This document shows, one piece after another, positions 27,561-53,700 of a stretch of DNA of 64,000 nucleotides. The position numbers were made by a program, and so were the translations under genes. This DNA is from Methanoregula formicica SMSP (GTDB lineage: Archaea > Halobacteriota > Methanomicrobia > Methanomicrobiales > Methanospirillaceae), in assembly GCF_000327485.1 (NCBI RefSeq), contig NC_019943.1, positions 682,001-746,000 on the forward strand, in the 5' to 3' direction. The first letter of the stretch is position 1. Every line of letters starts with the position of its first letter. The notes under the pieces are model-generated. The model was not told where the DNA came from, did not search any database, and saw only the letters and a program-made list of their open reading frames with translations.

Positions 27561-27855
27561 TGAAGCATTTATCTCCTTTCTCTAGTGGACGGACCGGGAT
27601 GCCTGGCCGGGCCGGGAAGGACCGGCCGGCCATGGCGATCGTACCCTTGCGGGAACGTGCCCTGCCGTCCCGAAAAAAGGGATACACATAAACCCGATGG
27701 CGGCCCATCATTTTTATCATCTGGTGATGAGGTCCACCATCAATCGCCCGGATCCGGGCTGATGACTTCTTGTTTTGATGGAGATGATGTCCGCACAGCG
27801 GTGGTAACAGACCGTCGGAACACCCGCGGAAAATCGAAGTATAGCGAGGTATATC
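27561..27855. promoter_or_regulatory. upstream region of thermosome gene
   Basis: No gene is seen. A TATA-like tttttatca near 27711-27719 is followed by a short inverted repeat (tcatc-tggt-gatga), and GAGGT sits at about 27846-27850 before the ATG at 27856. This is where heat-shock control of the chaperonin would act; no known operator was identified. Confidence 0.4.
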
Positions 27856-29508
27856 ATGGCGCAACAACTCGGGGGACAACCCATTATTATCGTAAAAGAA
27901 GGAACTACCCGGAACCGGGGAGAGGAAGCCCAGAACAGCAACTTTGCAGCGGCAAAGGCCGTTGCAGCAGCAGTCCGCTCAACGCTCGGCCCCAAAGGGA
28001 TGGACAAGATGCTCATCGATGGCATCGGGGACATCACGATCACGAACGACGGGGTGACGATCTTAAAAGAGATGGACATCGAGCACCCGGCAGCAAAGAT
28101 GATCGTGGAAGTGGCCAAGACCCAGGACGACGAAGTCGGTGATGGGACAACGTCCTCGGTTGTCATTGCCGGCGAACTGCTGAAAAGCGCCGAAGGGCTG
28201 GTTGTCCAGGGCGTCCACCCGACCGTGATCACGGAAGGGTACCAGATGGCCGCGGAGAAGGCGCTTTCAATCCTCGATGGCATCGCCGTCACCGTGAAGC
28301 CGACCGACACAGCGATGCTGAAGAAGATCTCCATTACTGCCCTGAGTGGCAAGAACGCGGAAGTACGGAAGGACCTGCTCAGCGATATCATCGTGAAGGC
28401 GGTAACGTCCGTCACCGACGCCGATGGAAAAGCCGACCTTGCCCACATCAATGTCACGAAAAAGGTCGGTGGCTCAGCTGATGACACAACCCTCATCGAA
28501 GGGATGGCCATCGACAAGGAACGGGTCCACCCGGCCATGCCCAAGTCAGTGACCGATGCAAAGATCCTGATCCTCAACGCGGCGCTGGAGTTCAAGAAGA
28601 CCGAGGTGAACGCGAAGATCAACATCTCCACCCCCGGGCAGGCCGCAGCATTCCTCGATGAGGAGGAGCACATGGTGCGTGCCATGGTGGACAAGGTGGT
28701 CAAGAGTGGCGCAACTGTCCTCTTCTGCCAGAAAGGGATTGACGATCTTGCCCAGCACTACCTGGCAAAGGCCGGCATCTTTGCCGTCCGCCGTGTCAAG
28801 AAGAGTGACAGCGAGAACCTGGCCCGGGCAACCGGGGCAAACCTCGTGACGAGCCTTGATGCCATCACCAAAAATGACCTCGGGTCAGCCGGCCTCGTTG
28901 AGGAGAAGAAGGTCTCGGGCGACGACATGATCTATGTCTCGAAGTGCAAGAACCCGAAAGCGGTCTCGATCGTTGTCCGGGGCGGCACGGTGCATGTTGT
29001 CGATGAACTCGAGCGGGCCATTCACGATGCCCTGATGGTGGTCTCGGTTGTTGTCGAAGGGAAGAAGGTCGTTGCCGGTGGTGGAGCCCCCGAGGTCGAG
29101 CTCTCGCTCCGGCTCCGCGAGCATGCCGCAACGGTCGGTGGCCGGGCCCAGCTCGCCATCGAAGCGTTTGCCGCATCGGTGGAGATCATCCCGCGGACCC
29201 TTGCCGAGAATGCCGGTGTTGACGCAATCAACATCCTTGTTGCGCTGCGCTCGGCTCACCAGGCCGGGAAGAAAACGGTGGGGCTTGATGCCGATGCCAA
29301 GAAACCGGCTGACATGCTGAAGGCGGGCGTTGTCGAGCCGCTCCGCGTGAAGACGCAGGCCATCTCCAGTGCGACGGAGGCAGCCGTCATGATCCTCCGC
29401 ATCGACGATATCATCGCAGCCCAGAAATCCGCCGGGCCGGCCGGAGGGATGCCTCCCGGTGGCATGGGCGGTATGGGTGGCATGCCCCCGGGTATGGGCG
29501 GGTACTAA
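27856..29508 (+). CDS. thsA: thermosome subunit (group II chaperonin)
   Basis: The 550-residue protein is a full-length group II chaperonin subunit that folds proteins inside a double-ring cage using ATP. Landmarks: [48 protein letters not shown] (ATP-binding GDGTT), a C-terminal [15 protein letters not shown], and the typical flexible Gly/Met tail ([14 protein letters not shown]). It appears as a single transcription unit with a T-rich stretch just after the stop. Confidence 0.97.
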
Positions 29509-30824: not shown

Positions 30825-31229
30825 CTATCGCGAATAGATCTCCCCGTCATTCAGGAGATATATGTCAATGTCTTTTTTGATGAGTCGTCCGTGGATCCGT
30901 TCCGTGTTCTCGGAGCGGAGCCGGTTGATCAGCTCCATGGGATCTTCGGGTAGCGGGATACCCCGTTTGGCCATCTCTGCATAAAATGCCGCAGTCACGT
31001 CCATCAGATCCGATCCCTGTCTGAATGTACAGATAGGAGTCACATCGAGAAACCGGAGTGCGTTCAGGGTTATCATTGCCTTCATGATTTTCTGCCGCGC
31101 CCGCTTCTCGGTTACGCAGATGTCTGCCCGGCTTGTGCCATAGATCTCTGCGATCTGCCCAAGCGTCATCCCCTGTTTGCGGTACCGCAGGACTTCCATC
31201 ATTTTTTTGGAGAGTATCGTGTGTTTCAC
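30825..31229 (-). CDS. Tfx-family DNA-binding regulator
   Basis: The 134-residue form has an N-terminal helix-turn-helix (LSKKMMEVLRYRKQGMTLGQ, IAEIYGTSRADICVTEKRAR) and a C-terminal domain as in Tfx, the protein that binds downstream of the fmdECB promoter in Methanothermobacter. The start was taken as GTG 31229, where the family normally begins. A longer frame from ATG 31340 overlaps the ECF T-component stop as ATGA and would add about 37 very basic residues, so that start is possible too. It is linked to the ECF transporter genes and may regulate them or respond to their cargo. Confidence 0.82.
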   Translation of the reverse strand: MKHTILSKKMMEVLRYRKQGMTLGQIAEIYGTSRADICVTEKRARQKIMKAMITLNALRFLDVTPICTFRQGSDLMDVTAAFYAEMAKRGIPLPEDPMELINRLRSENTERIHGRLIKKDIDIYLLNDGEIYSR

Positions 31230-31336
31230 GTCCCTGTCCTTTTTTGCCCGGCGGGCTCTCTTCTTATGAGAACGACGGAGACTGTTCCGGCCCGGGCGGC
31301 GAGCGAATCGTTTCTTTGGGGAAGGCTGCAGCGGCA

Positions 31337-32149
31337 TCATCCCCCTCCCGGGATCCCCGTAACGAGAATGAGCACGAGCACAAGGACTGCCAGTCCTGCC
31401 ACCATCCCTGCATCCGCCCGGCTGAACTCCTGCGACCGGCAGCAGGCCGGGTTCTCCGACTGGCGGAAGCCCCGGGCCTGCATGGCATCGGCCGTGTATT
31501 TCGACCGCTTGAGGAGGGAGACGGTGACCGGGGCAAAGAGCGCCACGAGCCGGTTGCTGTTCCCAACAAGGCTCCCTTTGTCCAGCTCGAATCCCCGCGA
31601 CCGCTGGGCGTCGATGATCTGCCGGGTGTCATCGGCAAGTGCGGTTGTTGACCGGAGGGCATACCCGAGCGAGAATGTGAGGATCGGCGGGGCCCGCATG
31701 CCCCGGAGGCTCCTCACCAGGTCATCGGGAGAGGTGGTCATGACAAAGAGGAACGATATCCCGGCGAGCGTGAGGAGCCGGAGGCCCATCGAGAGGGCGA
31801 AGAGGATTCCCCCTGTCGTGACTTCCGGGTGGAGGATGCCGATTTCCGCGGAGAACCAGACTGTGCCGGACGGTGCCTTTGAGAAGAAACTGTCGAGCAC
31901 GATCACGAGGAGGAGGAGCGGGAGGATGAGTGTAAGCGCTTTTCCTAGAGCCGTCCCCATCCGCGAGGTGATGGCAAGGACCAGCAGGAAAAGAAATACC
32001 AGGGCCAGTGCAGAGAGCGAGCTGAACAGGAGCGCCGCGATGCTCACGACAAGGACCATGAGAAGTTTCGTACGGGGGTCGAGGCGATGAAGGAAGGAGG
32101 TGCCCGGCCGGAAGCGGAGGAGGGCGAGCCTCCTGGCCTTCTTTGTCAT
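31337..32149 (-). CDS. ECF transporter T component (EcfT/CbiQ)
   Basis: The roughly 270-residue membrane protein has several helices and the two coupling motifs of EcfT with the Arg-Gly pairs: AQRSRGFELD and AMQARGFRQ in the cytoplasmic region, which press on the ATPases. LHRLDPRTKLLMVLVV near the start is typical for the family. The start was set at ATG 32149; GTG 32191 would overlap the ATPase gene. It is the third gene of an S-A-T set and is followed by the Tfx gene. Confidence 0.9.
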   Translation of the reverse strand: MTKKARRLALLRFRPGTSFLHRLDPRTKLLMVLVVSIAALLFSSLSALALVFLFLLVLAITSRMGTALGKALTLILPLLLLVIVLDSFFSKAPSGTVWFSAEIGILHPEVTTGGILFALSMGLRLLTLAGISFLFVMTTSPDDLVRSLRGMRAPPILTFSLGYALRSTTALADDTRQIIDAQRSRGFELDKGSLVGNSNRLVALFAPVTVSLLKRSKYTADAMQARGFRQSENPACCRSQEFSRADAGMVAGLAVLVLVLILVTGIPGGG

Positions 32150-32168
32150 TCCCGTCCCGGCCGGCGGG

Positions 32169-33713
32169 TCATGGCACTCCAGGATCGCCACCCCCGGCAG
32201 GGATCACCCATTCTCCCGGGGAATGGGAGTTGTCATGCGTTTCCGTCACTCTCCGGTAATCTCCTGCAATGCGCCCGCCGGCAATCCGGATGAAACGGTC
32301 GCCGCACGATTCCGCGAACTCCTCGTCATGGGTTGCGAGGATGACGCACTTTTTCCCGGCGCATAACGTCCGGAGCAGCGAGGACAGCGAGTGTTTCAGC
32401 CCGGGGTCGAGGCCGAAGGTCGGTTCGTCGAGGACGACAACCGGTGTCTCCATCGAGAGGATACCGGCGAGTGCGACCCGCTGCTTCTCGCCACCGGAGA
32501 GCCCGAGCGGGGGCGTTGCCGGGTCGATGTGACTGAGGGAGCACATGTGTATGGCTGTCTGCACCGCCTCGTCGAGTATGCTGCCGATCTTCCCGAGGTT
32601 TCGGGGGCCGAACGACACTTCGCCGGCGATAGTGTCCTCGAAGAGCTGGTGATCCGCGTGCTGGCCAAGGAGCCCGACCGTCCGGGCCGCTTCCGCAACG
32701 GTCTTTCCCGCGAGCGGACTGGTGCCGAGGAGGACGACCCCCCCGTCGGGAACTAGGAGGCCGTTGCAGTGTTTTAAGAGCGTTGTCTTCCCCGAGCCGT
32801 TCGGGCCGGTGATGACCGCAAGTTCCCCGGGATAGAAGTCGAGGCTCACCTTCGAAAGGGCCGGTCCTTTCTGTCCCGGGTAGGTGTACGTCACGTTCCG
32901 GAGCGAGAGCACCGGAGCCGGATGAATGGCCGGGATCTCCCGGCGGCCCAGCTGGAACCGGGTGGCAGCCGGCCCCGGTTTACCGAAGGCATCCCCCCCG
33001 GCGGCCGGCCTGGTATCGGAGACGACCGTCCCGTCCTGCATGGCGATCCAGCGGTCGGCAATCGCATGGAGCCAGGTTGTGCGGTGCTCGAAGATGACAA
33101 TCGTGATCCCGGTCTCCTTTTTGAGGTCGTGCAGGAGGCCTGCCAGTTCTGCCGCAGCAGGGGGATCGATCCCGGAGAAGGGTTCGTCCATGACAAGGAC
33201 TTTCGGGCGGGCAGCGAGGACGGATGCGATAGCGACCCGCTGCCGTTCCCCCCACGACAGGTCGGCTGTTGTCCTTCCCAGCAGGTGCCCGATCCGGAGG
33301 AGCGAGACAGTCGTTTCGATCCTCGTCTGGATCTCTTCTTCCGGGAGGTTCTGGGCTTCAAGCGCAAAGGCGATCTCGCTCTCGACATCACTGGTCACGA
33401 TCTGGTATGCGGGGTCCTGGAAGACGAGGCCGACCGTCCGGGCAAAGTCGGGGACATCGTGCTCCCGCGTGTCCAGCCCGGCTGCGACAACACGGCCGTC
33501 CATGGTCCCCCGGGTGGCATGGGGGATGAGCCCGTTCAGGCACCGGGCAAGGGTGGACTTACCGGAGCCGCTGTGCCCGGTGACGACCACAAATTCCCCG
33601 GGATCAATGGAAAGGCTGATGGTGCGGAGGGCAAAGCCGGCCCTTCCTGAAATGGATGGCGGGTACCGGAACGAGAGCCCGCGGATCGTAATAACGGGAT
33701 CATGCCCCGTCAC
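32169..33713 (-). CDS. ECF transporter ATPase, two fused nucleotide-binding domains
   Basis: The 514-residue protein contains two ABC ATPase domains. The first has VVTGHSGSGKSTLARCLNG, signature LSWGERQRVAIAS and Walker B VLVMDEPFSGID. The second has VITGPNGSGKTTLLKHCNG, LSGGEKQRVALAG and VVVLDEPTFGLDPG. Both have H-loop histidines. This fused form matches YkoD/EcfA1-A2 of energy-coupling-factor importers. GTG 33713, with GGGGGTGG before it, overlaps the S-component gene by 14 bp; the much longer open frame is a shadow over that gene. Confidence 0.93.
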   Translation of the reverse strand: MTGHDPVITIRGLSFRYPPSISGRAGFALRTISLSIDPGEFVVVTGHSGSGKSTLARCLNGLIPHATRGTMDGRVVAAGLDTREHDVPDFARTVGLVFQDPAYQIVTSDVESEIAFALEAQNLPEEEIQTRIETTVSLLRIGHLLGRTTADLSWGERQRVAIASVLAARPKVLVMDEPFSGIDPPAAAELAGLLHDLKKETGITIVIFEHRTTWLHAIADRWIAMQDGTVVSDTRPAAGGDAFGKPGPAATRFQLGRREIPAIHPAPVLSLRNVTYTYPGQKGPALSKVSLDFYPGELAVITGPNGSGKTTLLKHCNGLLVPDGGVVLLGTSPLAGKTVAEAARTVGLLGQHADHQLFEDTIAGEVSFGPRNLGKIGSILDEAVQTAIHMCSLSHIDPATPPLGLSGGEKQRVALAGILSMETPVVVLDEPTFGLDPGLKHSLSSLLRTLCAGKKCVILATHDEEFAESCGDRFIRIAGGRIAGDYRRVTETHDNSHSPGEWVIPAGGGDPGVP

Positions 33714-34245
33714 GCGATACCACCCCCGCCCTGATGAGCCGGGCAAGGACCAGCGCTGCGACAATGCCCCCGAGCCCGCCGAAGATGAAGTGCGTGATGG
33801 ACGCAGTCCCGATCCCGATGACGATGAAGGCTGCCGGGATCCCGAGGAACGTCTGGAGGGCGTAGTTGACTGCCATCTTGGCGAGGTTCCCGCAGGCCCC
33901 GGCAATGAACCCGGCGGCCGGGTGGTCGAGACGGTAGAAGAAGAGGAACCCGAGGAGGTCAATTGTCCCGCCCAGCGCAACGTAGATGAAGATATTGAAG
34001 ATGTGGAGGGTGTTGAGCCCAAAGAGGGTCGCGAGGATCCCGGAGATGAGCCCGATGAAGGTCCCTGCCCCCGGCTTCTTCACGATGCCGACGCCGATGA
34101 TGACCGGGACCACCCAGTAGATTCCGGTGTGGCCGGGGATCTTCAGCGGGATGGTGAACGCCGTGTTCAGGACCACGATGAGGGTGGCGCAGAGCGAGAG
34201 CAGGGCGACCTCGTGCAGGGAGAAGTAGGGTCTCTTTACCGGCAT
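33700..34245 (-). CDS. ECF transporter S component (YkoE-like)
   Basis: The 181-residue protein has five or six transmembrane helices and begins YFSLHEVALLSLCATLIVVL. It has the membrane layout of substrate-binding S subunits and the family phrase LGGTIDLLGF. The gene order S, fused ATPase, T is the same as in ykoEDC, which imports a thiamine precursor in Bacillus; the cargo here is not shown by sequence. It overlaps the ATPase gene by 14 bp and begins just past the permuted surface-protein gene. Confidence 0.88.
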   Translation of the reverse strand: MPVKRPYFSLHEVALLSLCATLIVVLNTAFTIPLKIPGHTGIYWVVPVIIGVGIVKKPGAGTFIGLISGILATLFGLNTLHIFNIFIYVALGGTIDLLGFLFFYRLDHPAAGFIAGACGNLAKMAVNYALQTFLGIPAAFIVIGIGTASITHFIFGGLGGIVAALVLARLIRAGVVSRDGA

Positions 34246-34246
34246 T

Positions 34247-35062
34247 TTAACTCGTCCTCACGAATTCTGTCCTGATCCTGAGGGCGAAATCGTCCGGCTG
34301 GGGGTGATCGGTTGCGACGAGGAGAAGCGTATCGTACCCTGCATCTCCACCGGTAGCGGTGATATAGAACGTCCCGTTCAGGTTTGTCGTGTCCGTGATC
34401 CCACCCATAGGCTTCGTAAGATTTGCCGCAATATGCAGTGCCCCCTGGCCACTCAAGGGCCCGCTGAACCACATCTGGCGGGTTGTGGCGGTCATGCTCC
34501 GGAGATCTGCGACCTGGTTATTGGAGACGGCGACAGTATACCCGTGTGTGCCGGACACTCGAAGAGGGGAAGCTGCGGGCATGGAAGAACCCGCTGGTGC
34601 ATCTCCCGTCACGACATAAGCGCACTGCCGGATCCCCGTCTGGCGGTTCGTCCGTGTTGGCACCCCGGTTCTGTTCGTCAGGCCATAGACATGGAAGACG
34701 GCCCTGCCCGAGAGGCTGGTAAAATTATATGTTACCCTTACTATCCCAAGCCTCTTGACCATGGGATTGCCGCTGACCGGTGTTGTATTGGCATCAATGA
34801 ACATCAGGAACCAGCTCTCGTTATCAAGGACGTCCTGCCCCGGGTCGATGCCCAGAGGGTTGTAACTGGGACGCCATGGTTGTGGACCGTACAGGAATCC
34901 TGCTTTGGTGAAGACCTGATCGGTGAATACACCCGGCACCAGTTCTGTTTGCCCCAGGGAAGTCGGGAACAGGGTGTCCCCGACCATGTCGAGTATGACC
35001 ATCCCCCCGAGAAAGCAGCCGATAAGGACGAATACCAGTCCGACCCGGGCACGGAACTCCAT
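34247..35062 (-). CDS. membrane-anchored surface protein with permuted repeat domain
   Basis: The 271-residue protein has an N-terminal signal anchor (VGLVFVLIGCFLGGMVILDM). The rest is one copy of the beta-rich domain that recurs in the proteins at 37601, 46471 and 47731. The halves are in reversed order: the YGPQ-x-W / GQD / LMFID / VRVTYNFTSLSGRAVFHVYG half comes first (about residues 50-130). The ALHIAANLT / GTFYITATGGDAGYDTLLL / PDDFALRI half comes last (about residues 205-265). This suggests circular permutation. It starts 2 bp after the TiaS-like gene on the same strand. Function is unknown, probably cell surface. Confidence 0.82.
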   Translation of the reverse strand: MEFRARVGLVFVLIGCFLGGMVILDMVGDTLFPTSLGQTELVPGVFTDQVFTKAGFLYGPQPWRPSYNPLGIDPGQDVLDNESWFLMFIDANTTPVSGNPMVKRLGIVRVTYNFTSLSGRAVFHVYGLTNRTGVPTRTNRQTGIRQCAYVVTGDAPAGSSMPAASPLRVSGTHGYTVAVSNNQVADLRSMTATTRQMWFSGPLSGQGALHIAANLTKPMGGITDTTNLNGTFYITATGGDAGYDTLLLVATDHPQPDDFALRIRTEFVRTS

Positions 35063-35063
35063 A

Positions 35064-35768
35064 TTAATCCCTTTTATCGTCTACCAGGCGGTCTTTTTCC
35101 TGTTTCACGAAAACGACCGTCCTGCCGCACACCGGGCAGAAGCGGGGGGACTTGCCCGGACGGAAGTACACGGTTCCGGTGGTATACTGCGTGCCGTCAA
35201 GGGAACAGACTTCATCGACTCCTGCCTCAAAAAGCCGTTCCACGGTGCAGGAGTCCAGAATGCTGCGGACTATCCCTTTCTGGAGGTATCGCCCGTCGCA
35301 TTTCAGGTAGGCGAGCCCAAGTCCGGCCATGGCGCCGATGACCCCGTCCTCAGTGCCCCCGAGGCCCTTGAGCCGGATATGCAGGTTCTTTGCAAGCGTC
35401 CTGGCCCGCTCCTGGGTGAGAACGGAGCATTTTGCGTCCTGCCCGTACACGATCAGGGAAGGCGTAATCTGCCTCTCGGATGCCACGGCCAGGCCGGGAT
35501 CGCTGCCTTCCAGGAAATCGTCGAGCATGACCTGTTCGGCGATCTCGAAGAGGTGATCCATGGCATCGTCCGCGTCTGTCTCCACGTGGATGACGGCATC
35601 GCTGTTGTGCGAGGTGTACGGGATGTCGGGGTGGACGTAAAGCTGGTGGCGAGTGACGCCGAAAACCGGGTAGTCGCGGGCGATGGTGTCGGCGATGGCA
35701 CGCGCCAGTTTCCCGGTCCCCCTGGGCCCGGTCAGCGTGTCCGTATCGTCAATGCAGATGTAGATCGT
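35064..35768 (-). CDS. TiaS-like protein with C-terminal zinc-ribbon half; non-ATG start
   Basis: Translation upstream of the first conventional start (GTG 35585) gives 61 more conserved residues beginning IYICIDDTDTLTGPRGTGKLA, the ATP/metal motif of TiaS-like proteins. The frame is closed by TAG just beyond, with no ATG, GTG or TTG between. The best start is ACG at 35768, which has AAAGGAG about 9 nt upstream. The product is then about 234 residues, ending in FCPVCGRTVVFVKQ, a zinc-ribbon-like half. TiaS makes agmatidine in tRNA-Ile; this shorter protein is a relative with unknown target. It lies just ahead of the permuted surface-protein gene. Confidence 0.78.
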   Translation of the reverse strand, partial: TIYICIDDTDTLTGPRGTGKLARAIADTIARDYPVFGVTRHQLYVHPDIPYTSHNSDAVIHVETDADDAMDHLFEIAEQVMLDDFLEGSDPGLAVASERQITPSLIVYGQDAKCSVLTQERARTLAKNLHIRLKGLGGTEDGVIGAMAGLGLAYLKCDGRYLQKGIVRSILDSCTVERLFEAGVDEVCSLDGTQYTTGTVYFRPGKSPRFCPVCGRTVVFVKQEKDRLVDDKRD

Positions 35769-35881
35769 ACGGGTTTGCTCCTTTGGCAGGTGAGAGATAT
35801 GCTACTGTTTTGTTTAACCTTTTGCAAATGTTAACAGGAAAGCCTGAACGGGATTTGCAGTGAGTTCCTTAGCTGACCGGA

Positions 35882-37600: not shown

Positions 37601-40081
37601 ATGAATGAAAAAATACAAGATTTCCCTATCAGTATCAGGAAATTATGGATACTATCCCTTCTCGTACTCTTCCTTGCTGCAGCGGTCACTATCCCGCCTG
37701 CAAGAGCGGATGATTCTTCCACTGCGCTCGGTATCTTCCCGGCAAAACACAATGTCGACAACCTTGCCGTAGCTAATCCCCCGGCGCCGACCGGCATGGA
37801 TTATTATTTCAAGTTCAACCAGTCCGGGGGGGGCGGTATCAACGCAATCCATATCTCGTCGACATCGGCGCTCGATTCAACGGGTCGCAACTTCGGGGAT
37901 GTTTCAACGACGACTTCCCAGTCCGGGACGTTCTATATCACGCAGACCGGCGGTCGTGGGTATGATGACAACTTCATCCTCCTGGTTGCTGTGAAAGGTG
38001 ATATCCCCAGCAATTTTGCCATCCATATAAAATCGAGCGGGTATATCTGGGTGCCGAACGGCGTACTGAGTTACCAGCCAACACTCTCTGAGATAACGTA
38101 CCGTTCCGGTGCCGTTGACCAGACGTTTACCCGATCCAACTTTGTATACGGACCGCAGACCTGGAAACCCTGCGGGAACAACCAGCCGGCAGACTACCCC
38201 CTTTATTATGGGCAGGATATGTCCGATACCACGAACCTCTGGAAGCTGATGTTCGTGGATCTCAAGAGCGGGAATCTCGGCCCAAACGGGGATCTTGATC
38301 ATACCTCCCTGAAAGACAACGGGGCGATCAGGGTCGATTACACGATAGAGAACTTGGATACAGTCGTTACGTTCAACGTGTACGCCTGGGCCGATAATGC
38401 ACCAGCGGGGCACGGCATCTCCTGGACTAACGGCGTTACATCCCCGTCTCAGAACAGCAACCCGTCCATGATCAGCGGATATACGGTGCTCGGGCCCCAA
38501 TACGCCAGCCGGGCATCGGAATTCCCGACCTATAGCGGCAGTACCCCATCCTACCGCGGGCCCGAGACCAACTTCACCGCGGCTCCCGTGAGCGGTCCGG
38601 CTCCTCTTACGGTGCATTTTAACGACACCACTGTCCAGACAATTTCCCTCTCGGCATGGGATTTTGGGGACGGGTTTTCTTCGACCGAAAGGAACCCGGT
38701 GCATGTCTACACCAAGGAAGGGACTTATACGGTTGCCCTCACGGATGCCAATAACCAGGGTATTACGACAACAAAAACCCAGACAAACCTTATCATAGTC
38801 ACGGCACCGACGGGTGGATCCGCGGCAAACAGTGGCGGAGCAACCGGCACCGGGAACCAGAACGGCAGCTACACGAACCCTCTCACCGGTGTTTCGTATC
38901 CTGTCAATTTCACTGCCAGCGTTACCTCCGGCGTAGCCCCGCTCTCCGTCCAGTTCTCCGATGTCTCGGGCATTCCCGGGACGATTGCCTGGGCATGGGA
39001 CTTTACCGGTGACGGCAAGCCTGAGAGTACTGTGAAAGATCCCGCCTATGTATTCAAAAGTCCCGGCACGTATTCCGTGAATTTAGTAGTCACTACCAGC
39101 GATGGAGGGAGGTTCTCAGTGAACCGCACCGGTTACATCCACGTCGTCGACAAGGTGTCCCTTGACAGCGATATTGGCTGGATATCGTCGGATAAGGCTG
39201 AGGCCGGGCAGGGCAATCCGGGTACCGGGAAAAGAGAAGCAGCAGCAGTCTCCACCAGCTCGTTTGCCTTCAGCGGTGTCCGGGCCGGGACGAACGGAGG
39301 GAAGCAGGACGTGACGATCGATACCCGGCAGGCGCCCGCCGAAACGTCCGGAAGCGTTGTCAGGCTGAACAGTGCCGGCGGGAGCTGGGAGAATGTTGCC
39401 ATCACATTTGCCGCCCCGCCGGTAAACGATGGGACGACTCTTTCCGGTACGATAAAAAGCGTCCAGGCAGAGACAAAGCCGGTTACGGTCCCGTCAGTAT
39501 CGCTCGGGAACCCCTCGGTCACGATGTCCCTGGGCCTTGCAGGGCTTCCCGATTCGGCGGCATCCATCACGAGCACTGCTGTCTCCGGGTGCGGGCCTGC
39601 CGGGGAGACCGCCTTCCGGGATGCCGTGAAGGCGAACGGCAATGACCTTTCGGCAGTCGCGTACACAGTGGCATACAGCAAGGACGGTATCGCAAATGAG
39701 GAGAACGGCGGGATCATCCGGGATGCCACCATCTCGATGGCGGTCAGCCCAGCCTGGGTCGCTTCACAAGGCGGAACCGGGCAGGTCGTGATCATCCACC
39801 GTGCTGACGATGGCAGGACAACGGTGCTCCCGACGCGGTACCTGGGGACGGACGAACGCGGCAACGAGCTCTTCACGGCCGATTCGCCAACCGGCCTCTC
39901 GACATTTGCCCTTGCGGCCGTTACGTCGGGTACCCCGGCGCCGACACCGGCGGTAAACCAGAGCCCGGGTGCAGCCGGGGGAACCTCGCCGCTGGGGGAG
40001 AAGATCGCCGGGCTCCTCTTCGATGCCATTATCGTGGTCGCCGTTATCGGGGCGGGTCTTGTCATCTGGAGGAAGATGTGA
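37601..40081 (+). CDS. large surface protein with repeat domain, two PKD domains and pre-PGF-like module
   Basis: The 826-residue protein has these parts in order. Signal peptide (residues about 1-36). The recurring beta domain in standard order (about 50-290: GINAIHIS, GTFYITQTGGRGYDD, FVYGPQTWKP, YPLYYGQDM, KLMFVDL). PKD 1 (about 325-400, AWDFGDGFSSTERNPVHVYT) and PKD 2 (about 430-510, AWAWDFTGDGKPE). A C-terminal PGF-pre-PGF-like module (about 545-775, SLGNPSVTMSLG ... AYTVAYSKDGIANEENGG). A C-terminal transmembrane helix with a short basic end. It is predicted to be S-layer associated or anchored, with a function in adhesion or envelope structure. It is a shorter relative of the 2149-residue protein at 47731. 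Confidence 0.9.
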   Translation: MNEKIQDFPISIRKLWILSLLVLFLAAAVTIPPARADDSSTALGIFPAKHNVDNLAVANPPAPTGMDYYFKFNQSGGGGINAIHISSTSALDSTGRNFGDVSTTTSQSGTFYITQTGGRGYDDNFILLVAVKGDIPSNFAIHIKSSGYIWVPNGVLSYQPTLSEITYRSGAVDQTFTRSNFVYGPQTWKPCGNNQPADYPLYYGQDMSDTTNLWKLMFVDLKSGNLGPNGDLDHTSLKDNGAIRVDYTIENLDTVVTFNVYAWADNAPAGHGISWTNGVTSPSQNSNPSMISGYTVLGPQYASRASEFPTYSGSTPSYRGPETNFTAAPVSGPAPLTVHFNDTTVQTISLSAWDFGDGFSSTERNPVHVYTKEGTYTVALTDANNQGITTTKTQTNLIIVTAPTGGSAANSGGATGTGNQNGSYTNPLTGVSYPVNFTASVTSGVAPLSVQFSDVSGIPGTIAWAWDFTGDGKPESTVKDPAYVFKSPGTYSVNLVVTTSDGGRFSVNRTGYIHVVDKVSLDSDIGWISSDKAEAGQGNPGTGKREAAAVSTSSFAFSGVRAGTNGGKQDVTIDTRQAPAETSGSVVRLNSAGGSWENVAITFAAPPVNDGTTLSGTIKSVQAETKPVTVPSVSLGNPSVTMSLGLAGLPDSAASITSTAVSGCGPAGETAFRDAVKANGNDLSAVAYTVAYSKDGIANEENGGIIRDATISMAVSPAWVASQGGTGQVVIIHRADDGRTTVLPTRYLGTDERGNELFTADSPTGLSTFALAAVTSGTPAPTPAVNQSPGAAGGTSPLGEKIAGLLFDAIIVVAVIGAGLVIWRKM

Positions 40082-40188: not shown

Positions 40189-40977
40189 ATGCCTGATGAG
40201 TCCAGCGAGATCCAGACGATAACGGTCCTGCCCGGCAAATCAAAGGACGGGAACCGGGAGTCATTTACCGAGATTACGATCCGGGCAGGCGATCTGGTCT
40301 CGATCGTCGGGCCGACCGGCTCCGGTAAGACCGCGTTCATCAACGACATCGAGGTCTTTGCGAGCGGAGATACCGTGACCGGGAGGACCGTGCTCGTCAA
40401 CGGCGAGGTGCCCCCCGACGAGATGGTGCGGGACCCGGCAAAAAAACCGATCGCGCTCATCACCCAGAACACCAAGTGTCTCGCGGATCTCACGGTCGGC
40501 GAGTTCCTGGAGATGCACGTGAAGGCCCGGAAGATCGCCGATACCACCCGCACGGAAGAGACCATCACGCTTGCCAATCGCTTCACCGGAGAGAAGATCG
40601 ACAGCACGATGCGCATGACCGCGCTCTCGGGGGGGCAGACCCGCTCGCTCCTGATTGCGGATGCCATTGCCGTGAGCAGCGCCCCGATCATCCTGCTTGA
40701 CGAAGTGGAGAGCGGGGGGATCTTCAAGGAGAACGTGATCGATTCCCTCCGGAAAAACAACAAGGCTGTCATCTTCGTCACCCACGACCCCCTCCTCGCG
40801 CTCCTCTCGGACCGGCGTATCGTGATGCGGAACGGTTCGGTGGAGAAGCTCCTCGAACCGGGCGACCGCGAGCAGGCGGTCCTCACCCGGATGACCTGGA
40901 TCGATGGCGCCTTCTCCCGGGTACGGGAGAAGATCCGGGCCGGGGAGATCCTAACCGAGGAGGCTGATACGAATTGA
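40189..40977 (+). CDS. stand-alone soluble ABC-type ATPase
   Basis: The 262-residue protein has every ABC ATPase motif: Walker A VGPTGSGKTAF at about residues 40-50, Q-loop ALITQNT, signature MTALSGGQTRSLLIAD, Walker B PIILLDEVESGG, and the H-loop VIFVTHDP. No membrane segment or permease gene is nearby, so it is not a transporter by context. It is the first gene of a three-gene operon with a HypB-like GTPase and a 4Fe-4S/His-rich protein, whose start overlaps this stop (TTGA). A role in metal-cofactor assembly or enzyme activation is inferred. GAGGAG precedes the ATG. Confidence 0.88.
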   Translation: MPDESSEIQTITVLPGKSKDGNRESFTEITIRAGDLVSIVGPTGSGKTAFINDIEVFASGDTVTGRTVLVNGEVPPDEMVRDPAKKPIALITQNTKCLADLTVGEFLEMHVKARKIADTTRTEETITLANRFTGEKIDSTMRMTALSGGQTRSLLIADAIAVSSAPIILLDEVESGGIFKENVIDSLRKNNKAVIFVTHDPLLALLSDRRIVMRNGSVEKLLEPGDREQAVLTRMTWIDGAFSRVREKIRAGEILTEEADTN

Positions 40978-41681
40978 AGCTCATCATCCTTGCCGGGCCG
41001 CCAAGCGCCGGTAAGACTGCGGTTGTCCGGCAGATCATCCGGCAGCTTGCGGGAGAGCACCTGATCGCATTCTTAAAGATCGATGTTGTCCGTGCTTTCG
41101 AAGACGAGGAGCTGAAAGCGGAATTTAAGATCCCGACGAAGAAGGTCTATTCCGGCGATGTCTGTCCCGACCATACCGGGATCCTCGTGCTCCGCGATGC
41201 GATCTCGTGGGCAGAGGACCTGGGTGCCGGCATCCTCATTGTCGAGAGTGCCGGTCTCTGCCTCCGCTGCACGCCGTACACTACCCAGTCGCTCGGGATC
41301 GCGGTGCTCTCTGCAGTCGGGGGAACGAACAGCCCCCTCAAGATGGCGCCCATGATCGCCCTTGCCGATATCGCGGTCGTGACGAAAGTGGATTTGATCT
41401 CGCAGGCGGAGAAGGAAGTATTTCGGGAGCGGGTGCGGGAGGTTGCCCCCCGTGCCGACATCATCGAGACGAACGCGGTGCACGGGACCGGGCTACGGTT
41501 CCTGATGAAGGCGATCCGGGCGATGCCGGAGATCCTCGACCCGGATGCAATCGTGCTCCGGGGCATGCCCCCCCTTGCCGTGTGCACGATCTGTGCCGGG
41601 AAGAAGGAGATCGGGTGGCAGCAGCACTTCGGGATCTTAAAGACCCTCGATGGCGCCGACGACCTGTACCGGGGAGAGTGA
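40974..41681 (+). CDS. HypB/UreG-like GTPase with Cys metal motifs
   Basis: The 235-residue protein is a G3E/SIMIBI-type P-loop NTPase: GPPSAGKTAVVRQII at about residues 8-22, an ESAGLCLRCTPYT segment equivalent to the ENVGNLVCP metal/switch region of HypB, and a base-recognition VVTKVDLI. The C-x2-C in LCLRC and the C-terminal CTICAGKK offer metal or cluster ligands. HypB and UreG insert nickel into hydrogenase and urease; this one is a divergent relative. The TTG start at 40974 overlaps the upstream stop. It probably drives metal insertion for an unknown target. Confidence 0.85.
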   Translation: MKLIILAGPPSAGKTAVVRQIIRQLAGEHLIAFLKIDVVRAFEDEELKAEFKIPTKKVYSGDVCPDHTGILVLRDAISWAEDLGAGILIVESAGLCLRCTPYTTQSLGIAVLSAVGGTNSPLKMAPMIALADIAVVTKVDLISQAEKEVFRERVREVAPRADIIETNAVHGTGLRFLMKAIRAMPEILDPDAIVLRGMPPLAVCTICAGKKEIGWQQHFGILKTLDGADDLYRGE

Positions 41682-41687
41682 AACGGG

Positions 41688-42548
41688 ATGGCATGGGAAC
41701 CTCCCGGCCGGAACTGCGGGGCCTGCGGGGCCGCAAACTGCAGCGATTTCCTGCTCCTGGCCCGGCAGGGGAAAAAAGATCTTCCGGACTGCCCGTATTA
41801 CGAGCGGCCGGAGAAGCGGGACTCACTGCCGGCTGCCCGACCGGGATCCGGCCGGGACCTGCTGGGATTCGATTACGATTTTGCGATCCACCCGTTCCCG
41901 AACGAGCCTTCGGCCCGCCGGCATATCCAGCTGCTCCGGCCGGACCTTGCCGAGCGGTGGGATCTTCTTCCCGGGGACATCCTGCGGGGACGGCCGGTGG
42001 AGCCAAGTTGTCCCATCCAGCACGTGCTCAGAGTATTCTCGGTCGATCCCGTGACCGGCATCCTCTCCTGCCATACGGTCGGGCCGATGGCAGCCCGTAC
42101 GGATACGAAGGTGTTTGACATACGGGCCTACCACGAGATCGGGTTCGAAGGTATTGCGAGGACCGTCCGGCACGAACCCGTGGTCGGGTTCCGGATGCGG
42201 TTCCTCCCGGCACACTGCATGCGGCAGCTGGTCCACTCGGGCGTTGTGCAGATGGTGCTGAACAAGTCCTGTGGTACCCACGTGCTGGTCGAGGACCTCC
42301 AGATGCACGGCAAGCGGGAGAAGTTAAAAGACATCACGATCCGGCCCGGCGATTCCGTCTCCATCCAGGATGCCTCGGGAGAGTGCAAGACGGTTCTCAT
42401 CGATGGAATCCGTGTCCACACTTCGGAAGGCGGGGTACTGGAGCGATCGTGGCAGGATGAGGACCATGGTCCCGGCGGGCACGTGCCGGGGTCCGGCCGG
42501 GGCCGGTGCCACGGCCATGCTAGGCACGGGCACGATGACGACGACTGA
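41688..42548 (+). CDS. 4Fe-4S protein with His-rich C-terminal tail
   Basis: The 286-residue protein begins with a Fe-S motif NCGACGAANCSDFLLLARQG...DCPYY (C-x2-C-x4-C-x16-C), as in RnfB and the CODH/ACS corrinoid protein. A middle domain follows with SCPIQHVLRVF, LSCHTVGPMAAR and LNKSCGTHVLVED. The last 30 residues are rich in His, Gly and Asp (GRGRCHGHARHGHDDDD), a likely nickel or zinc binding tail. It is the last gene of the operon, 6 bp after the GTPase with a good ribosome site. I do not recognise a named family; a scaffold or metallochaperone is inferred. Confidence 0.85.
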   Translation: MAWEPPGRNCGACGAANCSDFLLLARQGKKDLPDCPYYERPEKRDSLPAARPGSGRDLLGFDYDFAIHPFPNEPSARRHIQLLRPDLAERWDLLPGDILRGRPVEPSCPIQHVLRVFSVDPVTGILSCHTVGPMAARTDTKVFDIRAYHEIGFEGIARTVRHEPVVGFRMRFLPAHCMRQLVHSGVVQMVLNKSCGTHVLVEDLQMHGKREKLKDITIRPGDSVSIQDASGECKTVLIDGIRVHTSEGGVLERSWQDEDHGPGGHVPGSGRGRCHGHARHGHDDDD

Positions 42549-46436: not shown

Positions 46437-46459
46437 CATGCAGGGCGGAGCCCTGCATG
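46437..46459 (+). promoter_or_regulatory. perfect 10-bp leader stem-loop next to ribosome site
   Basis: catgcagggc pairs exactly with gccctgcatg around a 3-nt loop. The stem ends at the GGAGG ribosome site (46459-46463) of the gene starting at 46471. Confidence 0.6.
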
Positions 46460-46470
46460 GAGGTTTTCGT

Positions 46471-47379
46471 ATGAGAAAAGAACAAACACACATGAACAGG
46501 ATGTGGTGGATGGCCTCGGCGGTCGTCCTCCTCTTTGTCGCGCTGGCGGTGGTGCCGGTGGCGGCGAGCAACGCGTGGTCGTCGAACAACGATACCTTCA
46601 TTATTCCCGCAAACGGGATTAGGACCCACGGGGATAATGATGGCAATGACCACGATTTCAGTTACAATGGTAACGGAAGCTATTATTTCTGGATGGTGAA
46701 CGGGACGCAGGGGATGAACGCGATCCACATTACCAACAGCTTCTCCAGTCCCTACGGCCAGCTCACGAATTCGACGGAAAAATCCCACTACTTCTACGTA
46801 TCGAGCACCGGTGGGCATACCGGCGATGATGCCGCCCTTCTCCTGATAGCGGTCAACAGCACCAACCAGACGGACCTGGCCCAGTTCGCGATCCAGATCG
46901 ATGCGAAAGGATACAACTGGGACCCTCTGGCGGGAGCAGTCGCACCGGACTGGTTTGATCCAGGTTATGATGATTTGTATTACAACTATTCAACAGTGAG
47001 CCGCTCGTTCAATGTTGACAATTACCTGGAGAACACCAATGGTGACGTTACCCAGAGATGGAAATTCGCACCTCTGGACAACTACCCGATCTATGGCGGC
47101 CAGGACATGGCAGCCGACAAGGACTTCAAATTGATTCTGGTTGATCTCAATGCGGGACTGGTATCGAACCGTTGGGCAAATTACCAGAACCTGAAGGACT
47201 ATGGTACGATCAATGTCTCGTACTCGATCACAAGCACCCCCAAGGATCCCATGAATGTGACCTTCAACACTTACGTATACAATTGGGACGCCCCGCAGGC
47301 AAAGGGCACTATCCACTGGCTCAATGCATTGAGCGGGACAGCACAGAGCGGATACCAGGTAATCCTCCCCGGGTCCTGA
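46471..47379 (+). CDS. exported single-domain surface protein
   Basis: The 302-residue protein has a signal peptide (about residues 8-33, MASAVVLLFVALAVVPVAAS) and one copy of the recurring beta domain in standard order: GMNAIHIT, HYFYVSSTGGHTGDDAALL, DNYPIYGGQDM, FKLILVDLNAG and a C-terminal HWLNALSG. It has no PKD domain and no C-terminal anchor, so it may be secreted or held by other surface proteins. ATG 46471 has GGAGG 7 nt upstream. It lies directly before the giant surface protein. Confidence 0.87.
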   Translation: MRKEQTHMNRMWWMASAVVLLFVALAVVPVAASNAWSSNNDTFIIPANGIRTHGDNDGNDHDFSYNGNGSYYFWMVNGTQGMNAIHITNSFSSPYGQLTNSTEKSHYFYVSSTGGHTGDDAALLLIAVNSTNQTDLAQFAIQIDAKGYNWDPLAGAVAPDWFDPGYDDLYYNYSTVSRSFNVDNYLENTNGDVTQRWKFAPLDNYPIYGGQDMAADKDFKLILVDLNAGLVSNRWANYQNLKDYGTINVSYSITSTPKDPMNVTFNTYVYNWDAPQAKGTIHWLNALSGTAQSGYQVILPGS

Positions 47380-47730: not shown

Positions 47731-50700
47731 ATGATCCCGCGGCTCTTCCGGGTAGCGGCGCTCCTGCTCTGTCTTGTATTCATGATGGTTCCTGCCATGG
47801 CGGATGGCGGGCTTGCCAACAGCCCGTGGCCGAAGTACGGATACGATCTCAACAACACCGGCCGGTCCCCGTTCATCGGTTCGCAGGACGCTACGGTAAA
47901 ATGGATCTATCCAGCACCCGGTAACTTCACGTATAGTAGCCCGGTCATTGGGCCGGATGGTACTATCTATATCCCGAATTATGGCGACAAGAATCTCTAT
48001 GCCATCAACCCTGACGGGTCCGTCAAGTGGACATACTATAGCGGAGGGAATCTTTATTATTCACCTGCAATAGGGTCCGATGGCACGATATACTTCGGGG
48101 ACTACACGAACTATAATTTAACCGCGCTGAACCCAGACGGGACACGGAAATGGAACTTCACAACTGGGGGATCAGTCCAGGCCTCACCGGCAATTGGCCC
48201 CGACGGTACAATTTATGTGCCAGGTTATAGCAGCAACAAGCTCTATGCGCTAAACCCGGACGGGACCGAGAAATGGAACTTCACAACCGGGGGAGGTATG
48301 CGGGGAGGTTCACCGGCAATCGGCCCTGACGGTACGATTTATATCGGAACCTATGCTGACAAGAAACTCTGGGCGGTGAACCCAGACGGGACCGAGAAAT
48401 GGACCTTCACAACCGGGGGATCTGTTTATAACCAGCCAGCAATCGGTGCTGATGGCACGATTTATGTAACGTCATATACGGACAAGAAGCTCTGGGCGGT
48501 GAACCCGGATGGGACCGAGAAATGGAATTTCACGACCGGATATTCGATAGCTGCCGGACCCGCCGTCGGCTCGGATGGGACGATCTATATCGGATCACGT
48601 TATGCGAATGGGAAGTTTTTTGCGCTGAACTCTGATGGAACCCAGAAATGGAACTTTACTACATCTGCAATGATACCGGAAGCCCCCGCAATCGGCGCTG
48701 ATGGCACGATTTATTTCGGGACCTATTCGACAGCTTCAGGTAAAACGAGGAATTTTTATGCGCTGAACCCTGACGCGACCCAGAAATGGATCTTCACACT
48801 TGGGACAGGATTAGCTCAAGATATACAAGGTTCCCCCGCGATCGGGTCGGACGGAACCGTGTACGTCGCAACGAAGGAGGGGAAACTATACGCCTTCAAC
48901 GGCGTGGTCGATTACACCGCAGACCAGACCGCCGGAAAAGAGACGCTTGCCGTCCAGTTCACCGGCACCTCGACCGTGAGCCCCTCGTCCTGGTCCTGGG
49001 ACTTCGGGGACGGCGGCACCTCAACGCTCCAGAGCCCGTCCCACACTTACACATCCCCCGGGTCCTACACGGTCAACCTTTCCATCGTCAACCAGACGTA
49101 CGGGACGACAAACTACCTCCGCAGGACGGGTTATATCAAGGTCTATTCGGCGCCGACAGCCGCCTTTACCACAAACGTCACCGGGGGGTTCTATAACCTG
49201 CCGGTCAGCTTCACCGACCAGTCTACCAATATCCCGACTGCGTGGAACTGGTCCTTTGGCGACGGCAGCTACGCTTCAAGCCAGAATGCAACCCATACGT
49301 ATACGGCACCGGGAAACTTCACGGTCAACCTCACGGTGACCAATCCCGCGGGCAGCAACACCACCAGCAAAAAGGCATATATCGCGGTCTCTGCTCCAAC
49401 CATCCCCGTGGCATCCTTCACCGCCAACCAGACCGGCGGCATCCCCGGCCTGGCCGTCCAGTTCACCGACTCGTCCACGCTGAACCCGACCGCGTGGAAC
49501 TGGTCCTTTGGCGACGCGACGTACAGCGAGCTCCGGAACCCGGTCCACACGTATTCGTCAGCCGGGTCCTACGATGTGAGCCTGAACGCGTCCAACTCAT
49601 ACGGATCCAATATCCTCACGAAGACCGGCTATATCACGATCGATGCCCCGGCCGCGCCCGTGGCAAACCTCACGGTCTCCCACCGCGTCGGCCTTGCGCC
49701 CCTGGCCGTCCAGTTCAACGATACCTCGGCGCACTACCCGACATCGTGGAGCTGGAACTTCGGGGACAGCAGCAGTACGTCGGCGCTGAAGAACCCGTCG
49801 CATACCTACACTTCGGCAGGGAACTACACGGTCACGCTCACGGCAACCAACGCCCAGGGGACCAGCACCAACACCAGCACGTATCCCGTCACGGTCCTTG
49901 CGGCGGAGGCCCCGCTCTCCAACTTCCACTTCATCAACATCTACACAGCCAACGACGAGGGTGTCAGGTTCGATGTACCGAACGGCGTGTTTAACTCCGG
50001 CGGCGCCTATACCTACGTCCCGAACACCTACTGGGTCATGTTCCGGAACGCCGGCGGCGGGACGAACCCGATGCGCATCTCCGCGCTGAGTTCGAGCTGG
50101 AACGCTGCCGATCGCACCACCACGTCCAGCCAGTCCGGCCACTTCTGGATCTCGCAGAGCGGCGGGCAGCAGACCATGCACAACGGCATCCTGATGATCG
50201 CCGTCAACGGCACCATCCCGGACGATTTTAAGGTCCATATCAAATCGACCGGCGAGATATTTGACGTCGGTTCACCGGACATAACGAACATCTGGCAGTT
50301 CGCCGCCCCGGGCGAGACCCAGCGCGTTACCGGGGTTGACCAGACCTTTGACAAGAACGACTTCATCTACGGCACGCAGAGCTGGAAGCCTGACAGCACC
50401 GCGGACCGGCCGATCTTTTACGGTGAGGACCAGACCGACCCGATCAACCAGTTCCATATCATGTTCGTCGACCTCCGGGCCGGCACGTGCCAGAACACGA
50501 GCCTGCCTGACAACGGCCAGCTCCGGGTAGACTACAGCTTCACCAACCTCTCCGGCCGGGCGGTGTTCAATGCCTATGGCTGGTACATGCGGTCCAACCA
50601 CGGCACCGGCGTCATCATGACGAGCAACAATGATGCCTGCGGGTATACCGTGGACCCGGTCACCAGCCCCCCGGCCGCGGATTTTGCGGCAAATTCAACA

Positions 50701-53700
50701 TCTGCACCGGTCGGTTCCGCAGTCCAGTTCACCGACAAGTCGACGAATGCCCCGACAAGCTGGTCCTGGGACTTCGGTGACGGCGGGGTATCCTCTCTCC
50801 AGAATCCCGCGCACACTTACACGACAGCTGGCACCTATACAGTAAAACTCACGGCAACAAACGGTGTAGGGCCGGATACTGTGTCGAAATTGTCCTATAT
50901 TGCGATAACCCAGCCGCTCCCGACCTACAACGACATCTATGTCGCTGTTGCAAATACTGCAGGACCGAAGTACAATTCCTTCAGCAACAACACCTACCAC
51001 ATCCTATTCCAGGGTGCAGGCCAGGGACTGAACGCCCTGCACATCTCCACAGACCCGACAGCGAATTACGGGCAGGTGACCATATCCGAGAACCAGAGCG
51101 GGACGTTCTATGCCACAGATTCCGGCGGAAAGGGATATGAGGACGAGATCATCCTGATGGTCGCGGTCAACGGAACCCTTCCGGACGATTTCCGGATGAC
51201 GATCAATTCCGACGGGTATACTTGGACCCCGAATACCGCAAGCAACACCGCTCCCACCGCCGACAGCATTGTCTACCAGTCCTCGGCACTCAGCCAGACG
51301 TTCTCGGGCAGCGACTTCCGGTACGGCCCCCAGATCTGGAAACCCACGGCGGACGGCCTGAATTATCCCATCTATTCGGGACAGGACATGAGCAACACCG
51401 CAAATACCTTCCAGCTGATGTTCGTTGACCTGAACTCCGGGGTGCTCCATCCGGATTCGAGTCTCATGAATAACGGTGCGGTAAGGATCAACTACTCATT
51501 CCAGAACCTGACCTCCTTTGCGGCATTCAGCGTCTATGGGTACTGCAAGAACTCTAATGCCGGTGCTGATATGATCGGCTGGACCAACGCACTCACTTCC
51601 GATAAGACAATGAGCGGGTACTCGGTTGTCGGGACCGGAGGATCAGTCGGACCGGTAGCAGGTTTCACGGCGAACACAACCGTCGCGGCCATCCTTGCAC
51701 CAATCCAATTCACGGACACGTCGACCGGCGTCCCGACCTCGTGGTCCTGGGACTTTGGCGACAGCAGCACATCAGCTGAACAGAACCCGGTCCATGCCTA
51801 CAGCAGCGCCGGTACCTACACGGTCAAACTGACCGCAACCAACGACAAGGGATCCAACACCGTTACCCGGTCGAATTACATCACAGTGTCGGAATCCGCC
51901 GGAACATCGGTCGCCTCGTTCACCGCATCGGTTGTCAACGGTGTCGCCCCGCTGACCGTGACTTTCACAGACACATCGACCAACACTCCGACCGGCTGGA
52001 CGTGGGACTTCGGCGATGGCGGGGCATCGTCCTACCAGAACCCGACGCACACCTATGGTACAGCCGGGACTTACACAGTGAAACTCTCCGCAACCAACAG
52101 CAAGGGGAGCACTACGCACTCGGCGTCAAGCCTCATCTACGTGGCCAACGAGACCGGAGCCCTGCCCGACTACCACAATGTCTATATCCGGACAGCAAAC
52201 CACGATGGCATACAGTGGGATACTACGAATAACGGGACCTATTACGTACCTTCAGCCTCGAAAGGCAGCGGCCTCGCGTCTCTCCATATCTCAACGGATG
52301 CCTCTGACAACACCGGGAAGATAACAGAAACGGTCAGCCAGGACGGGACGTTCTATGCCATAAGTTCCGATTACCAAGACGACGTCATCCTGCTGGTTGC
52401 CGTTAATGGCACGGTCCCGGATAATTTTGCGGTCAGGATCAGGACGAGCGGATACACGTGGACACCCGTTTCCGGCTCTGCGCCGGTATCCGGCACGTAC
52501 CAGTCCGCGGCTCTCGACCAGACATTTACCAAGAAGGACCTCTTCTACGGCCCGCAGAACTGGAAACCCACGCAGGGCGATGTCGACTACCCGCTCATCC
52601 ATGGTGAGGACATGAACAGTACGGCATACATGTACCAGCTCATGTTCATCGATACCCGGGTCGGGGCCGTCAAGAACACCAGCTTCGTCAATAACGGTGC
52701 GGTGAAGATCCAGTACACCTTCACAAACCTTCCTGACACAGCAAGTTTCGGCGTCTATGGCTGGAAGACCGCCAAGGGCATGGGCTTCACCAATGAGATC
52801 AACAGCAGCGGATATATCGTGGTCTCCCCGTCTATCGGCCTCCCCGCGGTCGCGGACTTCGCCGCCAACCAGACCGAAGGCATCGCGCCATTCAACCCGA
52901 GGTTCAAGGACACCTCGCTCAACACGCCGACCGGCTGGGCATGGGACTTTGACAATGACGGAGTCATCGACAATACCAAACAGATCCCGGACTACACCTA
53001 CACGGCAGCCGGCACCTATTCGGTCAAGCTCACCGCAACCAACAGCAAGGGCTCCGATACAAAGACCCGGTCCGGCTACATCATCGTTACGGCCCCGAAA
53101 GAGACGACGAATGCCTTCACCCTCACCGGCGTCAACGCTACAACAACCGGCTCCGCCCAGACCATCGCGGTCAACGCCAGCAACTCGACCACCAGCAGCA
53201 ATATCATAACCGTGACCAATGTCAGCAGCACCTGGGACCACCTCAATGTCGCTCTTGCTGCCGCTCCGGCAGATGACGGACTGGGCAACCTGACCGGCAC
53301 CGTGCAGAGCGTCGAGGCCGTTGCCGCGAATGTCACCGTCCCGATCGAGTCGCTCGGCAACCCGAACGTCACGCTCTCCCTGACGATGTCACAGGTCCCC
53401 AACAGCACGGCCGCCATCACCAGCACCATCTCGTCCGATCCCGACGCATCGGTCTGGAGCTCGTTCACGCTGGCGGCCTCCTCGCAGAATAAGGAGATCG
53501 TGGCAACCGCGTACACGGTCAACTTCACCAAGACCGATATCGCCAATTCCGGCACCGGCGGCATCATCCAGAGTGCCAACATCACGATGGCGGTCAACCA
53601 CACCTGGGTCGAGGACAACGGCGGCAAATCCCGCATCGTGGTCATGCACCGGTCGGATGCCGGGAAAGTCACGTTCCTGACAACCGAATGGACCGGCCTC

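Follow-up and report, generated by a model that had tools for sequence, protein, structure and literature searches.

An apparently circularly permuted beta-sandwich protein encoded with an ECF importer in Methanoregula formicica and its relatives

Genes at the locus

The stretch of DNA analysed here (the window) covers 64,000 nucleotides of the genome of Methanoregula formicica SMSP (NCBI RefSeq contig NC_019943.1, positions 682,001 to 746,000 of the forward strand). On its reverse strand lies an operon of five genes in the order TiaS-like ORF, B-A protein, S component, double ATPase and T component. The second of these genes encodes a protein in which the two halves, A and B, of an unnamed domain of ~230 residues occur in the order B-A, whereas its five other copies within the window have A before B (A-B), as stated in the initial annotation. 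These five copies are distributed over three surface proteins: one in 37601-40081, one in 46438-47379 and three in 47731-54180. The features are the following:

35064..35585, (-): TiaS / methanogenesis-marker-11-like ORF, first gene of the operon (conserved beside the B-A gene)
34247..35062, (-): B-A (permuted) protein of 271 aa, composed of a membrane helix, the B half and the A half (reading frame, profiles, model)
34970..35056, (-): N-terminal membrane helix of the B-A protein, residues 3-31, positive side inward (AlphaFold helix H3-31, hydrophobic segment)
34604..34924, (-): B half, residues 47-153, equivalent to the second half of the canonical domain (profile alignment)
34547..34603, (-): B-to-A joint, residues 154-172, closing the old termini (relatives' joints)
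34250..34546, (-): A half, residues 173-271, equivalent to the first half of the canonical domain (profile alignment)
33700..34245, (-): ECF S component, PF09819 ABC_cobalt (31.9 bits, cut-off 25.2)
32169..33722, (-): ECF ATPase of 517 aa with two fused ABC domains (two ABC_tran stretches)
31337..32191, (-): ECF T component, CbiQ family (PF02361, E 2.7e-31)
37727..38479, (+): A-B domain in the PKD surface protein 37601-40081 (profiles)
46645..47364, (+): A-B domain in the surface protein 46438-47379 (profiles)
49954..50676, (+): A-B domain 1 of the surface protein 47731-54180 (profiles)
50920..51651, (+): A-B domain 2 of the same protein, the copy modelled by AlphaFold (profiles, model)
52165..52845, (+): A-B domain 3 of the same protein (profiles)

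In the B-A protein a linker sits between the helix and the B half, and the chain terminates directly after the A half. The B half carries the motifs YGPQ-W...GQD...LMFID...VRVTYNF...VYG, and the A half ALHI...GTFY...GG...PDDF. An N-terminal hydrophobic segment is present in all 38 B-A relatives, with the N side more positive in 35, and a median of 13 residues separates the model-extended halves of these 38 proteins.

The surroundings of the operon hold further features. The gene of a Tfx-family DNA-binding protein (30825-31340, (-)), a candidate regulator, overlaps the end of the T-component gene, whereas its relative in two other genomes (G021 and G195) is found immediately upstream of the operon. 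Three genes at 40189-42548 (+) encode an ABC-type ATPase, a HypB-like GTPase and a protein with a Cys-rich start; relatives of this set, possibly a metal-handling module, cluster near the operon in G021, G195 and G093. In most genomes the vicinity of the B-A operon and of the A-B surface genes includes a MoxR-type ATPase gene (loci L051, L054-L064, L071-L076 and others), which suggests a wider conserved surface-protein locus. Farther away, a fluoride riboswitch (RF01734, 40.5 bits, 27714-27778, (+)) immediately precedes a gene for a thermosome (group II chaperonin) subunit (27856-29508), an unusual partner for this riboswitch. Finally, the homology of the TiaS-like ORF extends beyond its first ATG/GTG/TTG start (GTG at 35585) by ~60 codons in the upstream direction, over 35586-35800 (-). 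The conserved N-terminus of this ORF (...TIYICIDDTDTL...) starts around 35770, and no common start codon is in frame with it, so that a rare start codon may be used or the gene may be damaged.

Order of the halves and unity of the fold

The order of the halves was examined with profiles built from A-B copies only, used both as A-B and rotated to B-A. Against the A-B profile the window protein scored 63.9 bits with the B half alone aligned, and against the rotated profile 135.5 bits (E 1e-38), with residues 47-265 in a single alignment, which confirms the swap of halves first noticed in the initial annotation. The B-A relatives reached a mean of 57 bits with the A-B profile, one half at a time, and of 117 bits end to end with the rotated one, which fitted the whole protein in 37 of 37; shuffled sequences scored at most 4 bits against the profiles.

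Within the order, 39 of 232 genomes encode full-length relatives with the same arrangement of halves, roughly 30-67% identical, as does a single genome from a different order. The count of 39 leaves out a fortieth listed genome (G123), which matches only inside a 1630-aa A-B protein, and it includes a few genomes whose B-A matches are cut by contig ends or frameshifts. The genome of the other order (G257) carries an outlying B-A operon (L098) and no A-B copies, and in its B-A protein A-B-like residues (GQN, ISWTN, VNGTIPD) are retained in greater number than in the rest of the B-A family.

As several copies of the domain sit within one genome region, the gene could be imagined as an assembly or annotation artefact, a chance fusion of pieces from two neighbouring copies. 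An artefact of assembly or frame was rejected on the evidence of the full-length relatives of the same order in other genomes. The same full-length gene is found with the same neighbours in genomes from several families, and the window gene recurs at 99% identity in a separate Methanoregula MAG, the sole near-copy in the scan of named-genome contigs, leaving the artefact a negligible probability.

The same swap could be produced by ordinary domain shuffling if A and B were two separate domains, with no circular permutation of one fold. Each half has ~100 residues, which is big enough for a small sandwich, and the A-B and B-A folds were compared by strand order, not by superposed structures. 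However, among the 227 complete copies in all fetched loci (189 A-B and 38 B-A), no complete half stands alone. Nine single halves were left, and by position these are edge-cut (contig or locus), frameshifted, interrupted by a stop (in incomplete genomes) or partial; halves occurring by themselves, named in the initial annotation as the mark of separate domains, are thus accounted for by damage, edges or partial copies. Other lone halves had been suspected with profiles derived from B-A proteins and were discarded when profiles derived from A-B copies found the partner halves.

Structure prediction also speaks against two domains. AlphaFold modelled the A-B domain as one compact, confident unit (pLDDT 94.4, pTM 0.93) and the B-A protein with values lowered by its 46-residue helix and linker (pLDDT 85.8, pTM 0.79). 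Compared by strand order, both models contain the same strands, with the order rotated in the B-A protein, and the distant PDB matches of both (Ig and jelly-roll, single matches of ~100 residues) span the two halves; in strand order the predicted folds agree, where a difference of fold had been put forward as evidence against a permutation. VIA-align matches were middling (best Z 6.8 and 6.3) and may reflect merely a common sandwich arrangement. A likeness to the copper-binding protein CorA (4bz4) was weak (Z 4.6) and was set aside.

Strong couplings run between the halves of the A-B copies (97-123, 81-169, 84-162 and 82-164, from 117 effective sequences and 238 columns). The pair 97-123 corresponds to strands a7-b1, and 84-162 and 82-164 have a constant index sum, as for an antiparallel pair a6/b3. 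Given 117 effective sequences, we consider the inter-half couplings as supporting evidence only; within the B-A family the covariation of inter-half pairs was not significant (P 0.10-0.29, Neff 20). Shuffling of two separate domains seems very improbable to us, and a single beta-sandwich formed by A and B together is strongly supported. Based on the match to the rotated profile, the absence of lone halves, the compact A-B model and the swapped order of predicted strands, the initial reading of the B-A protein as a circular permutation of one beta-sandwich is well supported.

Origin of the permuted form

Judging from the alignments, the permuted unit is the domain cut at the canonical A-B linker, with the old ends joined by a short linker. 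The initial annotation had presented the permutation as an occurrence within one locus. The swap itself stands, but not its reading as a recent local event, since the B-A protein is an old, separate family of orthologues with an operon of its own.

Permutation by duplication predicts a tandem form (PMC3320104). A tandem A-B-A-B protein is indeed encoded in another locus (L062), where only 4 residues separate the first B from the second A. The B-A profile recognises the inner B-A unit of this protein (E 5.6e-28), so that the old ends can evidently be joined directly. This situation resembles that of saposins and swaposins, where the halves are swapped and a tandem repeat form contains the permuted unit (PMC3320104), but here the two orders coexist within single genomes and loci, and the permuted protein is anchored in the membrane and fixed in one operon.

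In the unrooted tree of the B half, all B-A proteins fall on one side of a branch with a support of 99. In that of the A half, also unrooted, the protein of G257 alone groups with A-B copies when the tree is left free, and a single B-A group is not rejected (p-AU 0.905). A single origin of the B-A form is the simplest reading. The form may have arisen once by duplication, when an A-B-A-B tandem was trimmed to B-A, or the change may have run the other way. Neither tree has a root, and G257 combines a B-A protein with the lack of any A-B copy, so that the data are compatible with either polarity.

Under the reverse polarity, the B-A form of the ECF operon would be ancestral, and the A-B surface domain would derive from a B-A tandem and would then have spread with PKD repeats. 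The one genome outside the order that carries B-A only is consistent with this, as is the one-to-one tie of B-A to the operon, whereas A-B copies multiplied per genome. Nevertheless, tandem repeats are seen for A-B only, the trees are unrooted, and G257 may have gained the operon by transfer (it is present in one of the four genomes of its order). We regard an ancestral B-A form as possible, although on the doubtful side.

The ECF operon and a proposed role for the B-A protein

Wherever the contig sequence read was long enough to judge, the B-A gene lies in the same operon; at a few loci the T component either escaped detection or fell outside the sequence read. Judged from the genes alone, dedicated S, A and T components are encoded in one operon, as in group I ECF transporters. 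Of the S-component relatives, 12 of 12 scanned match PF09819, and the S component has no sequence match in the PDB, hence no solved S component by sequence. In L098, the relative of the double ATPase matches both ECF_ATPase_1 and ECF_ATPase_2, and the relative of the TiaS-like ORF shows similarity to TiaS_TCKD and TIGR03280. A riboswitch search at the operon was negative in the window and seven relatives, with no THI box.

The S component is present in 39 of the 232 genomes of the order, exactly the 39 with the B-A protein, and in none of the 193 others (Fisher p 3e-45). Outside the order the two occur together in G257, and G093 has two copies of each. A-B domains are found in 45 genomes, 38 of them shared with the B-A protein (Fisher p 3e-35), leaving seven genomes with A-B and no B-A protein; conversely, 38 of the 39 B-A genomes have A-B. 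The tie to the S component is therefore complete (39/39), and that to A-B strong but incomplete. A-B genes adjoin the B-A operon in most loci, and A-B proteins are near but not obligatory companions of the operon. This strict link with an ECF transporter, absent from the initial annotation, is more telling than the swap.

Being always encoded with that importer suggests that the B-A protein is a dedicated part of it, the co-occurrence with the S component being one of linkage, not of physical contact. We think it probable that this circularly permuted beta-sandwich protein is a membrane-anchored extracellular accessory subunit of a dedicated (group I) ECF importer, and the operon structure and perfect co-occurrence point to a single-span, extracytoplasmic one. 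Alternatively, the B-A protein may be a structural membrane anchor for the surface A-B proteins, co-transcribed with the transporter and not working in transport. The fold shared by the two, the A-B genes beside the operon in most loci and the A-B copies in nearly all B-A genomes would fit such an anchor, but whereas the B-A protein co-occurs perfectly with the S component, its co-occurrence with A-B has gaps, as illustrated by the G257 operon without A-B and the seven genomes with A-B and no B-A protein, which makes this explanation unlikely.

As an accessory subunit of the importer, the B-A protein would most likely hold or gate a ligand just above the S component, and the shared fold suggests that the A-B paralogues on surface proteins may bind this ligand, or one like it, at a greater distance from the membrane. 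With the permutation, the membrane anchor would sit at the a7/b1 edge instead of the a1/b8 edge, and we propose that another face of the sandwich is thereby turned toward the membrane, which would plausibly explain the rearrangement. More speculatively, one ligand-binding beta-sandwich may be used in two topologies, A-B for catch at the cell surface and the permuted, ECF-fixed form for receipt, with the permutation setting the orientation of the hand-over.

Among known systems, the group I ECF transporter YkoEDC (PMC5037267) also has a dedicated operon with an S component, a fused double ATPase and a T component. The operon described here differs in that no THI box was found, in the constant presence of an extra single-span extracytoplasmic protein and of the TiaS-like ORF, and in an S component that matches PF09819 but no solved S component by sequence. 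Extra components encoded with S, T and A components are represented by CbiN, NikN, NikK and NikL, and for archaea the survey of Ni/Co ECF importers reports NikMN types only (PMC2667541). By analogy, the B-A protein may be comparable to CbiN or NikK/NikL in role, not in sequence; it has no sequence match to their families, and its fold is shared with surface proteins.

Surface proteins of the same order include the S-layer and sheath proteins of Methanomicrobiales (PMC11641113, PMC11576556), the S-layer protein being a chain of Ig-like sandwiches. That of Methanospirillum is of the DUF3821 type (PMC11641113), and a Pfam scan gave no DUF3821 match for the B-A or A-B proteins. For the domain, including the B-A protein, Pfam and NCBIfam contain no family above cut-off, a PDB sequence search returned nothing convincing, and a Foldseek search of PDB and BFVD yielded no hit with E below 0.001. 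In our literature searches, neither the domain, nor the operon, nor the permutation was found described. Circular permutation and ECF importers are known kinds of phenomena; their combination is new.

The B-A and A-B proteins offer a clean natural experiment, in which two topologies of one fold occur side by side within single genomes, accompanied by a tandem form that is possibly an intermediate. They also suggest that Methanomicrobiales possess an ECF importer, apparently unannotated so far, of which an extracellular subunit is an obligatory part. For a large group of surface proteins without any functional lead in the family libraries searched, ligand capture for import would be the first one.
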